Source of the DNA: Deltaproteobacteria bacterium
Lineage (GTDB): Bacteria; Desulfobacterota; GWC2-55-46
Direction: 5' to 3'
DNA: 32,472 bases
Assembly: GCA_016218095.1 (NCBI GenBank)
Contig: JACREV010000048.1
Location: forward strand, 1-32,472
Shown one piece after another: positions 25,102-32,472 of this stretch. Numbering within the stretch: the stretch's first letter is position 1; the number at the start of each line of letters is the position of its first letter. The notes under the pieces were generated by a model. The model saw only the letters and a list, made by a program, of their open reading frames with translations. It made no database searches and was not told the DNA's origin. Made by a program: the position numbers and the translations under genes.

Positions 25102-27621
25102 TCACCTCCTCGGGTGCTTTACCCTCCTCGTAGGCTCGGCCTCCACGGGGTCATCCGGCCAGTGGTGTTTTGGGTACCTCCCCTTCATCTCCTTTTTGAC
25201 GAGCTCATAGCTCGTCTTCCAGAAGCCCTTGAGGTCGTCCGTTACCTGAAGCGGCCGCCCGGCAGGCGACAAGAGGTGGATGAGGAGCGGGACCTTTCCA
25301 CGCAGAACAGCCGGGGTCCTCTCGCACCCGAACATCTCCTGGAGTTTTACCGCGAGGACGGGCCTCTCACCGGAGTAATCTATCCGTATTACCGACCCGC
25401 TCGGGACCTTTATGGAGGCCGGGGCAAGCTCGTCCAGCTTCTTTTTGTCTTCCCATGAAAAAAGAGAGATGAGGCAATCGCTCAAGTCGATTTTTTTAAG
25501 CTCCTCCAAGCGGGTCATGCCCATGGCCCTTTTGCCGAGCCACTTTTCCAGGTTATCGAAGAGCCAGTCGTTTGAAAGGTCAGGTAATCCGGCCTCTCTT
25601 GCGGCGCGCCTCAGGAAGGCGACGCGCGCACGGAACTCCTCCGAGGCCCTGTCCCAGGGCATGGCGGACGCGTTCTCCTTAACGCCTTCAAGGAACGCGG
25701 CGAGGACCTTCGTCTTGTCCGGGCCTTTGAGCGGCTCGTCCTTTATGACGATGTTCCAGTACCTAAGACGCCTCCTCGTTGAGACCGCCTTCTCCCCTTG
25801 GTCCCATGAGACCGACTCGTCTACATCCATCTCGTCGGCGAATAGTTCGAGTATCTCGGATTCCTTTATCGGGGAGGCGAGGAAGACAGCCGACTCCCTA
25901 TCCCCGCCGTCAAGGCTTCCAGCGACGATGTACTCTTCCATCGATAGCGCGTCGACCCCCCGGATAAACGCGCCCCTGCCGTTGGCGAGGAGGAATCGCG
26001 CTTCTTTCCCTTCGCGCCTCTTTCCGACCCTGTCAGGGTAGGCGAGCGCGAGGAGCACTCCGGTCCTTTCGATGTCAGCGCGGCCTTTCTTTATTCCGAG
26101 CTCGCGCTCGATTCTACGCGCGGACTGCTTCACGCGCTCCATGACGGTTCTATCCGCCTGAAGAGGGGCCTGCGCGTCTCCCGTAAGACAATGGAGCCTC
26201 TGCCTTATGTCCGTATCCCTTTCGTTTTTGAATATGTCCCTTTCCATGAGGAGCGCGGATAAGAGGCAGGCGAGAGCGCCTTCGCCCATCTCCGCGCCCT
26301 TCACAACCATGTGCCCGAGACGCGGGTGGAGCGGGAGCCGCGAGACGGCGGAGCCGTGCGGGGTAATCCCGCCGACGCTATCGATTGCGCCGAGGTGGAG
26401 GAGTATCTCTTTCGCCTGCGACATCGCCGCAGGAGGGGGCGGGTCGAGCCATTTGAGGGACAACGGGTCTTTTACGCCCCACGCCGAGAGCTCGAGAGCA
26501 AGGGGCGCGAGGTCGGCCTCCAGTATCTCCGGCGTCGACTTCTCCTTGAGCGTCCGGTCCTCGTCCTCTGTCCAGAGGCGCAGGCACAGGCCGGGCGCGG
26601 TCCTTCCGGCGCGGCCCTTTCTCTGGTCGGAGGAATCCCTTGTGACCCTGATGGTCTCGAGCCTCTCCATGCCGGTCCCCGGAGAGAACCTTGGCGTCCT
26701 CTTGAGCCCCCCGTCTATTACAATCCTTACGCCGTCTATCGTAATGCTCGTCTCGGCTATGGACGTCGCAAGCACGACCTTTCTCCTGCCCGTAGGCGAA
26801 GGCCTTATCGCCTCGTCCTGCGCCTCGCGCGCGAGGTCGCCGTAAAGGCACATGATATCGACTCCGGGAGGGAGCGTCTTTTCTTTCAGCGCCGCTTCAG
26901 TCCTCTTTATCTCAGAAGCGCCCGGGAGGAACACGAGGATGCTCCCTTCCTCTTCCTTAAGGGATGAGAGTACAGCGCCTGTCACCCGGGATATGAACTC
27001 GGGGCCGGTCAAGTATCCGGCGCGCTCCGGCCTTGACGCCTTCGGGAGATAACGGACCTCGACCGGGAAGGCCCTGCCGGAGCAGCTAACGACAGGCGCG
27101 TCCCCGAGGAGCGAGGAGATCCCGGCGGTGTCGATCGTCGCCGACATGACGAGCACGCGCAAGTCCTCACGGAAGACGGAGCGGGCCTCTAATGTGAGAG
27201 CGAGCCCCAGGTCTGCGTGTATCGACCTTTCGTGGAACTCATCGAATATGATCGCCGCTATGCCTTCGAGCGAGGGGTCTCCCTGGAGGAACCGCGTGAG
27301 TATGCCTTCGGTGACGACCTCTATTTTAGTGTTTGGCCCGATGCGGGAATCGAGCCGTGTCCTGTAGCCGACCGTGGCGCCGACGTCTTCCCCTAAAAGA
27401 GCGGACATCCTCGATGCCGCGGCCCTGGCCGCAAGCCTCCTCGGCTCCAGCATGACGATGCGCCTGCCTGAAACCCACCTTTCGCCGAGAAGGGCGAGGG
27501 GGACTATCGTAGTCTTACCCGCCCCGGGCGGCGCTTCGAGGACATCGGAACCGAAGCCGTCGAGCGCGCGGCGTACTTCCGGTATCGTATCTTCTATGGG
27601 CAGTCCGGTCTTAAGGTCCAT
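25102..27621 (-). CDS. hrpB: ATP-dependent helicase HrpB
   Basis: EAPPGAGKTTIVPLALL (Walker A), DEFHERS (DExH), ATSIAETSITIDGVRIVIDGGLKR, QRKGRAGRTAPG; HrpB-type C-terminus. Confidence 0.96.
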   Translation of the reverse strand: MDLKTGLPIEDTIPEVRRALDGFGSDVLEAPPGAGKTTIVPLALLGERWVSGRRIVMLEPRRLAARAAASRMSALLGEDVGATVGYRTRLDSRIGPNTKIEVVTEGILTRFLQGDPSLEGIAAIIFDEFHERSIHADLGLALTLEARSVFREDLRVLVMSATIDTAGISSLLGDAPVVSCSGRAFPVEVRYLPKASRPERAGYLTGPEFISRVTGAVLSSLKEEEGSILVFLPGASEIKRTEAALKEKTLPPGVDIMCLYGDLAREAQDEAIRPSPTGRRKVVLATSIAETSITIDGVRIVIDGGLKRTPRFSPGTGMERLETIRVTRDSSDQRKGRAGRTAPGLCLRLWTEDEDRTLKEKSTPEILEADLAPLALELSAWGVKDPLSLKWLDPPPPAAMSQAKEILLHLGAIDSVGGITPHGSAVSRLPLHPRLGHMVVKGAEMGEGALACLLSALLMERDIFKNERDTDIRQRLHCLTGDAQAPLQADRTVMERVKQSARRIERELGIKKGRADIERTGVLLALAYPDRVGKRREGKEARFLLANGRGAFIRGVDALSMEEYIVAGSLDGGDRESAVFLASPIKESEILELFADEMDVDESVSWDQGEKAVSTRRRLRYWNIVIKDEPLKGPDKTKVLAAFLEGVKENASAMPWDRASEEFRARVAFLRRAAREAGLPDLSNDWLFDNLEKWLGKRAMGMTRLEELKKIDLSDCLISLFSWEDKKKLDELAPASIKVPSGSVIRIDYSGERPVLAVKLQEMFGCERTPAVLRGKVPLLIHLLSPAGRPLQVTDDLKGFWKTSYELVKKEMKGRYPKHHWPDDPVEAEPTRRVKHPRR

Positions 27622-27731
27622 CGGTCCATGATAACAAATTTAAGTGCAGGCTTCGAGGATTACGGCGATTGATAATCTCCCCCTTAACGGATAGAATAAA
27701 TATCCAGGATATCCGAAGGGGGCATTTAGCG

Positions 27732-28928
27732 GTGAATATTAATAAGAAGCTCGCGGTCATAATGGCCGGGCTCCCGGCAAGGGGGAAGAGCTACCTGTCG
27801 CTCAGGCTCCAGAGGTACCTCGAATGGCAGGGGTACAGGGCGCGCATATTCAACGTCGGCGCGTACAGGAGGGAGTCCCTCGGGCCGGCGTCGTCCAAGA
27901 GCGACTTCTTCGACCCGAGGGAGAGCGCGTTCTCGCGCGAGAGGGAGAGGATAGCCAAGCGGTGCTTCGCCGACTTGGCCGGATGGCTTGAAAGCGGCGG
28001 GGAGGTCGCCATATACGACGCGACGAACGTGACCGCGTCGAGGAGGGCCTACCTTAAGGACGAGTGCGAACGGCGCGGCTTCGCCTTTGTCTTTGTCGAG
28101 AACATCTGCGACGACCCTGGGATAATCGAGAAGATAATATGGATAAAGCTAGAGCACAGCGCCGACTACACCGGGTTCGGCAGGGACGCCGCAAGGGCCG
28201 ATTTTACAAGGAGGCTCGGCCACTACGAGGGCGTATACGAGCCAGTGTCGGATGTGGCGCACATGAAGATCATCAACTTCGGGCTCTCGGTCGTAAGGGC
28301 CTACGGCCTCGGCAACCCGTTTCTCGACGAGATAGCGGATTTTCTCGGGGCCGTGAACCTCATGGACAAGGAGGTGTTCCTGACGCGCCACGGCGAGACG
28401 TATTTCAATTGCGAGGACAGGATAGGCGGGGACTCGCCCCTGACGGATAAGGGAGTCGAATACGCCGGAAGGCTCGCCGCCCATTTCAAGGGGAGAGACC
28501 TCGTGGTATTTACGAGCGCCAAGAGGCGCACGATCGAGACCGCTTCCTTTTTCGACTGCGAGCGGGTCGTGCTCCCCGAGTTGAACGAGATAAACTCGGG
28601 CCTCTGCGACGGCCTCTCGTACGCGGAGATAACTGAGATGCACCCGGAGGTGAGCGAGGCGCGGAGCGACGACAAGTTCAACTTCAGGTATCCCGGAGGC
28701 GAGTCCTACAGGGACTTGATCCAGAGGGTAAAGAAGGCGGTCATAAGGATAGAGGCCGAAAAGAGGGACGTACTCGTCATAGCCCACAGGGCCGTCAACC
28801 GCTGTCTCGTATCGTACTTCATCCCCACGCCCCCCGAAGAGGTCCCTTACATAGAGATGCCGCTCGACAGGATAATAAGGATCGCGCGCCTGAACGCCCA
28901 TTACGGGTGCGACTGGAAGGTGATATGA
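27732..28928 (+). CDS. Bifunctional 6-phosphofructo-2-kinase/fructose-2,6-bisphosphatase-like protein
   Basis: AVIMAGLPARGKSYLSLRLQRYLEWQG, FNVGAYRRE, VAIYDATNVTASRR, ENICDDP; then LTRHGETYFNCEDRIGGDSPLTDKG, LNEINSGLCDGLSYAEI, FRYPGGESYRDLIQRV, AHRAVNRCLVSYFI. GTG start at 27732 with GAAGGGGG RBS preferred over the TTG at 27669. Confidence 0.93.
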   Translation: MNINKKLAVIMAGLPARGKSYLSLRLQRYLEWQGYRARIFNVGAYRRESLGPASSKSDFFDPRESAFSRERERIAKRCFADLAGWLESGGEVAIYDATNVTASRRAYLKDECERRGFAFVFVENICDDPGIIEKIIWIKLEHSADYTGFGRDAARADFTRRLGHYEGVYEPVSDVAHMKIINFGLSVVRAYGLGNPFLDEIADFLGAVNLMDKEVFLTRHGETYFNCEDRIGGDSPLTDKGVEYAGRLAAHFKGRDLVVFTSAKRRTIETASFFDCERVVLPELNEINSGLCDGLSYAEITEMHPEVSEARSDDKFNFRYPGGESYRDLIQRVKKAVIRIEAEKRDVLVIAHRAVNRCLVSYFIPTPPEEVPYIEMPLDRIIRIARLNAHYGCDWKVI

Positions 28929-29207
28929 GCCTGGCCGCGTAAGACCTTCTTCCCTATCCGTCCCTCCGCCTCTCATTCGGGGAAAGCCGGATTCTGTTTT
29001 CTTTTGCCGGGCGATCCCCATTTTCCAAGTCATATTTCCCCCCTACAGGCGCGTCATTCAACGAGCCGTTTAGGGGGCGCCATCGCCCCGAGTTCTGTAA
29101 TCACGGTCACCGCCTTAATCCCCCGATGCATATAGAATTGCCCCTTGAGAGGACCGGCAGATCCGGGCATACCATGCAGATTTTTCGAAGAGGGGGGCTT
29201 TGAAAGT

Positions 29208-29534
29208 ATGCGGCACAGCAAAGTCATGGTCGAGGCCAGAGGGCCTATAAGGATAGTGGCCGCGCGGAGGTCTTCCAAGGTAGTCGAGTACGAGGTGAGG
29301 GAGTTCTCGGAGCCGGGGTCTATCCCGAACTGGTTCATGGGGGTGGTGCTGTTACTGCGCGACGAGATACAGGAAGACGAGAAGATAGTGGTCCACGACA
29401 AGATCATAAAGATAGTGAAGAAGACCCCGCTCGACAAGCTCGTCGACTGGGTGCGCCGCTTCAAGACCCATGGCGCCGGCGACGAAGGGGATGGGGACAA
29501 CGGGTCCGAGCGGGACGAGGCCTTTAAGAACTGA
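29208..29534 (+). CDS. Hypothetical protein
   Basis: MRHSKVMVEARGPIRIVAARRSSKVVEYEVREF...; ORF with a G-rich upstream region, closed by a strong terminator. Confidence 0.6.
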   Translation: MRHSKVMVEARGPIRIVAARRSSKVVEYEVREFSEPGSIPNWFMGVVLLLRDEIQEDEKIVVHDKIIKIVKKTPLDKLVDWVRRFKTHGAGDEGDGDNGSERDEAFKN

Positions 29535-29667: not shown

Positions 29668-32472
29668 ATGAAGAACCTTTCTCTATCCCAGAAGGCCCTT
29701 TTGGCGGTCTTCATCATACTGCTCCCGATAACCCTCACCTTCGTCTACGGCTACAGGAAAAACAAGGAGCAGTTGAAGGGCGCGGTCCTCAAAGAGATGA
29801 CCGTCATAGCCGAGGCCTACGAGGGGCAGGTCCTGCAACACCTCGATGTCGTAAAGAGGCGTGTCGCGGGTCTCTCCGCCGACAAGTCGATAAAGGCGTT
29901 CGCTAGGGAGGCCGTTGCCGGAAAGAAAGGCTCCGCAGGGCGCTTGGCGTCCTATTTCATCAGTGAAAACGCCGAATACGGTATCGGCATAAAGACGATA
30001 AGCCTGATTTCCCCCGTTGGAAGGGTCCTCGCCTCGACCGACCCGTCCAGGGTCGGTCAGGACCGTGCTCTCAATGAGAGTTTCTTAAGGGGCTCCTCAA
30101 ATACCTCGATAGCCGAGGAGAAGAACATCGGCTCCGGCATCCCCGAGATCGCGATCTCCGCGCCGGTGCTCGACGGGGCCTCCGGCGGCCTCTTGGGCGT
30201 GATAACGGCCACGGTCCCCTTTTCAGATTTGAACCGCCTTCTAAGCGGCGAATCCAACAAGGAGCTCGGCGCCCTTTCATGGTCAAAGGGCAGGCACGAG
30301 ACCATGGAGGTATATCTCGTCAACCGCGACCGCGTCATGCTCACCGACTCGATATTCATCAAGGACGCGGCGATGAGGCAGAAGGCCGCCACCGACCCGG
30401 TCGGCAAGTGCCTGGAGGCCGGCATCGAGATGACGGGCTTCTACAAGGACTACAGGGGCATTGAGGTCGCCGGGGCATCGATGTGCTTCCCCGGGGTCGG
30501 CTGGACGCTCCTTGTCGAGACCGACGAGTCCGAGGTCGTGCGCCCGGCTGAAGAGATGCTCAAAAGCGCGGTCATAGGCGCGGCCATGGCCGGCATCCTC
30601 ATCATCGCGTTCTATATCCTGATCATAAGAAAGATGGTCAAGAGGGTCGGCAGGCTCGCCAAGGCCGCGGGCGAGATAGCCTCAGGCAACTACGACGTGG
30701 CCCTTCAGGTGAAATCTCTCGATGAGATAGGCGAGCTCAACATGGCCTTTAACACGATGGCCCGGGACATAAGGGAGAGGAACGCCGAGATCTTGATGGA
30801 AAAGGACAGGGCGCGCATGTACCTCGACCTCGCCGGCGTAGTCATCGTCGCCATCGGGCTCGATGAGAAAGTGAGGCTCATAAACAGGAAGGGGTGCGAT
30901 CTCCTGGGACTGCGCGCAGAGTACATAATAGGGTTGAACTGGTTCGAGAGCTTCGTCCCGGAGCATTCGCGCGAGGAGATGAGGGAGTGTTTCAGGAGGT
31001 ACCTTAAAGGCGAGGAGAAGACCGACTATTACGAAAAAGACATAGTGACGGCCGAGGGGGGAGTGAGGACCGTCGCCTGGCACAACACGGTCCTCCGGGA
31101 CCTGTCCGGCGCGGTCATAGGCACCCTCTCCTCCGGCGAGGACGTTACCGATAAGAGGAGGGCCGAGGAGGCCTTAAGGATATCCGAGAGAAAGTACAGG
31201 ACCATCCTCGATGAGTCGAGGGACGTCATATTCGTCGCCACACCCGATCTAAGGCTCATGGACCTGAACCCGGTGGCCGAGGAGGTCTTCGGGTACCGGC
31301 TCACGGAGCTCGTCGGAAAGCGCCTCGAAGGGTTGTTCATAGAGGAATCGGACCGGGAGAGGTTCAAGGGCGCGATCCGGGAAAGGGGGGAGGTCAAGGG
31401 GTTTGACGCGCGCGTGAGGAAAAAAGACGCTCAGGAGATATGGCTCTCGATCTCGGCCAGGCGCGTCGAGGAGACCGGCGGCCCCATATGCCGGGGCATA
31501 ATGCGCGACATAACGATGCATAAGCACCTCGAGGCCCAGCTCCTCCAGGCCCAGAAGATGGAGGCGGTGGGTCAGCTCACGGGGGGCATCGCCCACGACT
31601 TCAACAACATCCTTACGGCCATCATGAGCTCGGCGGGCCTCCTCGAGCTCATGCTCCCGGGTGAATCGAAGCAGATGCACTACGTCCGCCAGATCGTGTC
31701 GTCGGCGGAAAGGGCCTCGAACCTCACCCGCGGGCTCCTCGCCTTCAGCAGGAAGACGCTCGTGGAATTGAAACCCGTAAGGGTGAACGAGATAATAAGG
31801 AACACCGAGAGGCTCCTCTCCCGGCTCATAGGCGAGGACATCGACTTCAAGGTCTCGCTTACGGACGCCGACCCGGTGGTCACGGCCGACGTCTCCCAGA
31901 TAGAGCAGGTCCTCATGAACCTCGCCACTAACGCAAGGGACGCCATGCCCTCCGGGGGCGCGCTCTCCATCTCGACCGGGACGATAAGCCTCGCCCACGA
32001 GTCGATGAAGGAACAGGCCTACATGCGCCCCGGCGAATACGCTCTCATTACCGTCTCCGACACCGGCACAGGCATGGAGAGAAGGGTGGTCGAGAGGATC
32101 TTCGACCCGTTCTTCACGACAAAAGAGGTCGGCAAGGGCACCGGGCTCGGCCTCGCCATCGCCTACGGCATAATGAAACAGCACAACGGCTACATAAACG
32201 TCTACAGCGAGCCGGGGGTCGGAACCCAGTTCAAGCTGTATCTGCCTCTGGCCGGGATAAAGGCCGAAGAGGAGGATAAGATAAGGTCCGAGGCCCCCCA
32301 GGGCGGGACGGAGACGATACTCCTTGCCGAGGACGACGCGGAGGTGAGGAACCTCATAAAGGCCCTTCTCGAGGAGTTCGGCTACACGGTCATCGAGGCG
32401 GGAAACGGCGAGGAGGCGGTAAGGAAGTACGCGGAGCTGGGCAAAGATGTCGACTTGCTCGTCCTCGACGTC
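29668..32472 (+). CDS. Hybrid sensor histidine kinase (extracellular sensor-HAMP-PAS-PAS-HisKA-HATPase-REC), 3' truncated by window end
   Basis: My own translation from ATG 29668 stays open to 32472 (935 codons); absent from the ORF track because it has no stop in the window. TM1, periplasmic Cache-like region, [48 protein letters not shown] start [14 protein letters not shown]. Confidence 0.93.

Follow-up and report, generated by a model that had tools for sequence, protein, structure and literature searches.

By the textbook account, fructose-2,6-bisphosphate is a signal of eukaryotes, made and destroyed by a two-headed enzyme in animals, plants and fungi, and bacteria are generally described as lacking it. 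The question raised by the present locus is whether the gene at positions 27732..28928 (+) of the 32,472-nucleotide stretch of DNA that was analyzed as a whole (the window) encodes such an enzyme in intact form, and what it could do for its host. The gene comprises 398 codons without an internal stop and has no intron. It starts with GTG at 27732, with TTG at 27669 as a possible alternative; a GGGGG sequence about 9 nt upstream of the GTG forms the ribosome site, and the starts of the homologues lie at about the same position. A profile search of the host genome identified it as the sole 6PF2K gene. When the 398-residue product was compared with the PDB by phmmer, a single continuous alignment to human PFKFB3 was obtained (residues 2-394, E=5.3e-79), and the match to PFKFB is far beyond chance. 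One chain carries first a 6PF2K domain and then a histidine phosphatase branch 1 domain, which is the PFKFB order. The 6-phosphofructo-2-kinase domain (PF01591; 27741..28277, +; residues 4-182) contains the P-loop GLPARGKS and the motifs FNVGAYRRE and DATN, and scores 168.5 bits with the Pfam 6PF2K profile (cut-off 27; 170.7 bits in the genome search). The fructose-2,6-bisphosphatase domain (PF00300; 28374..28877, +; residues 215-381) contains RHGE, LNEI and AHRAVNR, and scores 120.8-123.1 bits with His_Phos_1 (cut-off 21.7). The kinase and phosphatase motifs quoted in the first-pass annotation were found in the sequence, and this groundwater bacterium apparently has a complete PFK-2/FBPase-2.

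An AlphaFold2 model for which only fetched bacterial sequences were used as input had a mean pLDDT of 91 and a pTM of 0.88. The top Foldseek matches of this model were all PFKFB structures (TMq 0.86-0.89, 34-36% identity) with the two domains similarly arranged; the predicted model matched 1BIF/2BIF with a TMq of 0.89 and an rmsd of 2.6-2.7 Å, and rat PFKFB4 with a TM of 0.89. The likeness to mammalian PFKFB1-4 (1BIF, 1K6M, 2AXN) thus extends over the domain order, the fold (TM 0.86-0.89) and the residues for catalysis and substrate binding in the two halves, whereas the identity is 34-37% in structure-based or kinase-half comparisons, and the bacterial protein of 398 aa has no long N- or C-terminal extension. 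Compared to PFKFB3, it also lacks residues 205-209 and has Arg in place of Q388. Plant F2KP has a large N-terminal domain, which is likewise missing from the bacterial protein.

Individual residues were checked in a 36-sequence alignment with PFKFB3 numbering, and the role assigned to each of them is the one known from PFKFB structures. All 13 kinase positions are kept (G46, K47, T48, which is Ser here, R74, R75, R98, D124, T126, N127, R132, K168, R189 and Y193), so that the P-loop, the Walker-B-like Asp (D124 equivalent) and the catalytic Lys (K168 equivalent) are present together with the fructose-6-P contacts R74/R75, R98, T126, R132, R189 and Y193. In the phosphatase half, 14 of 16 positions are kept (R252, H253, E255, N259, I264, G265, S298, E322, Y333, R347, K351, Y362, H387 and R392); together with the Arg at 302, R252, H253, E322, H387, Y333, R347, K351, Y362 and R392 supply the His-Glu-His residues, the Arg pocket and the sugar-phosphate contacts. 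The two other positions, 302 and Q388, are both Arg. Position 302 is Arg in every bacterial copy and in PFKFB4 but Ser in PFKFB3, which indicates that the phosphatase half resembles the Arg-bearing isoforms; the Arg at Q388, which is shared by most bacterial copies, is the one departure. C154, V70 and Y73 are common to this protein and PFKFB3, and differ in the other bacterial clade described below. The first-pass annotation had raised the possibility of a new substrate. A PFK-2-like fold acting on another sugar phosphate (e.g. sedoheptulose-7-P) would generate a different signal, and the kinase half, being just 37% identical to PFKFB3, and the Q388 to Arg change in the phosphatase would be in keeping with this. 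However, every fructose-6-P contact examined was retained, in both domains and in both bacterial clades, for which reason a new substrate is not favoured and we regard this explanation as unlikely.

Such a eukaryote-like gene could also represent eukaryotic contamination, or a recent transfer without a role, and the FNVGxYRR and CDDP motifs are indeed nearer to the mammalian ones than those of the other copies in the phylum. The flanking genes, however, are bacterial. The gene is preceded by a divergent gene for an HrpB-type ATP-dependent helicase (25102..27621, −; Pfam HrpB_C, 177.5 bits), and followed by a gene for a dCache-HAMP-PAS hybrid histidine kinase, assigned by Pfam and synteny, that runs past the window end (29668..32472, +). 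The order HrpB helicase, PFK-2, hybrid histidine kinase is identical in two close relatives with 84-87% identity (L002 and L003), and thus in three genomes in all. Moreover, five genomes of the family have the gene over the cut-off, with identities of 60-88% and with proteins that form one clade, and the summed branch to the mammalian enzymes amounts to about 3.7 changes per column. The close relatives, including GWB2_55_19, were deposited as 'Deltaproteobacteria bacterium'. Because the bacterial synteny is conserved, contamination is excluded and the gene is a real bacterial gene; taken together, contamination or a recent transfer without a role is extremely improbable. The residues, the fold and the synteny bear out the earlier claim of an intact bifunctional PFK-2/FBPase-2 in a bacterium. 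We do not think that the helicase and histidine kinase neighbours are functionally linked to the PFK-2 gene, which in this genome stands outside any sugar-metabolism operon. A small downstream ORF at 29145-29534 (+) of the window is kept in L002 and L003 and has no Pfam match.

Within the family, two copies (L004:3995-5188 and L005:4001-5194), which are sister to the subclade of this protein, have the P-loop GLPARRKT instead of GLPARGK[ST], the second P-loop glycine being replaced by Arg (CGC or CGG codon). Judged from these sequences, their kinase may be lost or altered. All other kinase residues are kept in both copies, and the remaining kinase half is as conserved as in the protein described here, which would be odd for a dead kinase. 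The altered P-loop of these relatives is in line with a mainly phosphatase function, in which a weak or decaying kinase accompanies the removal of fructose-2,6-P2 or another phospho-ester, as is the higher identity of the phosphatase half to PFKFB3 (42.5%, versus 37.1% for the kinase half). Against this, the present protein, L002 and L003 all retain an unaltered P-loop and the full set of kinase residues, and we regard this explanation as unlikely too, slightly more so than another substrate.

The enzyme is not confined to this family. Of the 297 genomes sampled from the phylum, 47 contain a 6PF2K match over the Pfam cut-off, 44 of these matches having an E below 1e-29 and three being weak, while the 14 control genomes, which included E. 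coli and B. subtilis, have none. Nearly all strong matches in the phylum belong to an 'FNNGxLRR' clade (L010, L024-L052), and the 30 copies compared from outside the family form this separate clade with unchanged active-site residues. It has the same two domains and active-site residues as the present protein, but FNNG/LRR in place of FNVG/YRR, a separate position in the tree, and a mean identity to this protein of about 32% in the kinase and about 44% in the phosphatase. In phages and plasmids no full-length copy was found, the matches being to the stand-alone phosphatase domain only. A giant-virus protein fragment in BFVD (A0A3G4ZRQ2, Dasosvirus) could be aligned with the kinase as well as the phosphatase domain of the model (TMt 0.69, 21% identity), and is possibly a viral PFK-2/FBPase-2-like protein. 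In an unrooted tree, the mammalian enzymes, this clade and the FNNG clade are three monophyletic groups, from which the closest pair cannot be told. A phosphatase-only tree with an outgroup paired the mammals with this clade (89/99), but this joins them only weakly, given the extreme length of the outgroup branch and a eukaryotic sampling limited to mammals, and any transfer may have gone either way. A characterised bacterial PFK-2/FBPase-2 was not found in the open-access literature. According to a passage in a 2022 paper citing Rider et al. 2004, fructose-2,6-P2 is absent from bacteria except Desulfovibrio desulfuricans (PMC9721465). The latter is likewise a bacterial occurrence, likened to ours by that description and not by sequence, and as far as this passage goes the present finding extends a known exception. 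The first-pass annotation was correct in seeing an intact eukaryote-type copy in a bacterium; given the phylum-wide family and the exception cited in that passage, the copy is not an isolated oddity.

What could the product of such an enzyme act on? The candidate targets that the first-pass annotation had suggested looking for were found in the host genome as a single PFK-family gene (L060; G000:C146:14855-15745) with the motifs GGDD and PKTIDND, and one class I FBPase (PF00316) with canonical substrate-site motifs, while no GlpX FBPase was found there. The L060 PFK gene comes after a sensor histidine kinase gene. The combination of GGDD and PKTIDxD is the signature of PPi-dependent PFK (PMC12203962). 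Plants also pair F2KP with a PPi-PFK and a cytosolic FBPase, a likeness in gene content and not in plant sequences. Plant PPi-PFKs are reported to be activated by fructose-2,6-P2, but none of 11 metabolites elicited a response from a clostridial enzyme of this type (PMC12203962), which makes the PPi-PFK a weak target; the cytosolic FBPase of plants is reportedly suppressed by fructose-2,6-P2 (PMC12965863). Co-occurrence with PFK (PF00365) carried no information, as 266 of the 297 genomes encode such an enzyme. For class I FBPase, we compared 26 genomes with and 26 without the PFK-2 gene, and found it over the cut-off in 25 and 14 of them, respectively (Fisher p=0.0008, a value that is uncorrected for relatedness and overstates the association). 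This association is exploratory, since the genomes were hand-picked from the phylum and the comparison was made after the fbp linkage had been seen. This linkage places fbp at 3-5 kb from PFK-2 in six genomes (G126, G236, G259, G281, G321 and G340), all of which belong to families f45 and f60 and may reflect one ancestral arrangement. Between the PFK-2 and class I FBPase genes, four of these loci (L075, L079, L080 and L083, in G236, G340, G259 and G126, respectively) contain combinations of Bax1-I, radical SAM, metallophosphatase and HGD-D genes, a block that the two families share. On account of the association and the linkage, class I FBPase is our preferred target, a choice made with moderate confidence.

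Based on the present data, the protein is probably a catalytically competent bifunctional PFK-2/FBPase-2 that sets fructose-2,6-P2 and acts mainly on class I FBPase. The data show the homology, the predicted fold, the conserved residues, the gene content and the fbp association, from which we infer both enzyme activities, the occurrence of fructose-2,6-P2 in the cell, its targets and how these are regulated. The N-terminal kinase, with K19 in its P-loop, would convert fructose-6-P and ATP to fructose-2,6-bisphosphate, and the C-terminal phosphatase would remove it via a phosphohistidine at H220. The metabolite would most likely restrain the one class I fructose-1,6-bisphosphatase that the genome encodes, with the sole PPi-type PFK as a possible further target, and would in this way tune, in the manner of plants, how carbon is divided between glycolysis and gluconeogenesis. 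The Arg at Q388, the location outside a sugar-metabolism operon, the confinement of the close fbp linkage to two families, the unresponsive clostridial PPi-PFK and the altered P-loop of the sister subclade count against this reading. The regulated switch between these pathways that had been proposed at the outset is plausible, and the genome's pairing of a PPi-type PFK with a class I FBPase, its lack of GlpX and the fbp association in the phylum lend it support. In a wider and more tentative view, which we consider somewhat less likely than not, bacteria might possess a widespread fructose-2,6-bisphosphate system, found in about 1 in 7 genomes of the phylum, that controls class I FBPase and possibly PPi-PFK in a plant-like manner, and of the bacterial lineages this one might stand nearest to the eukaryotic enzyme. 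If this is true, an intact bifunctional enzyme that occurs across the phylum and accompanies class I FBPase would turn fructose-2,6-bisphosphate into a cross-domain regulator, and would be relevant to the question of where the eukaryotic PFK-2/FBPase-2 came from.
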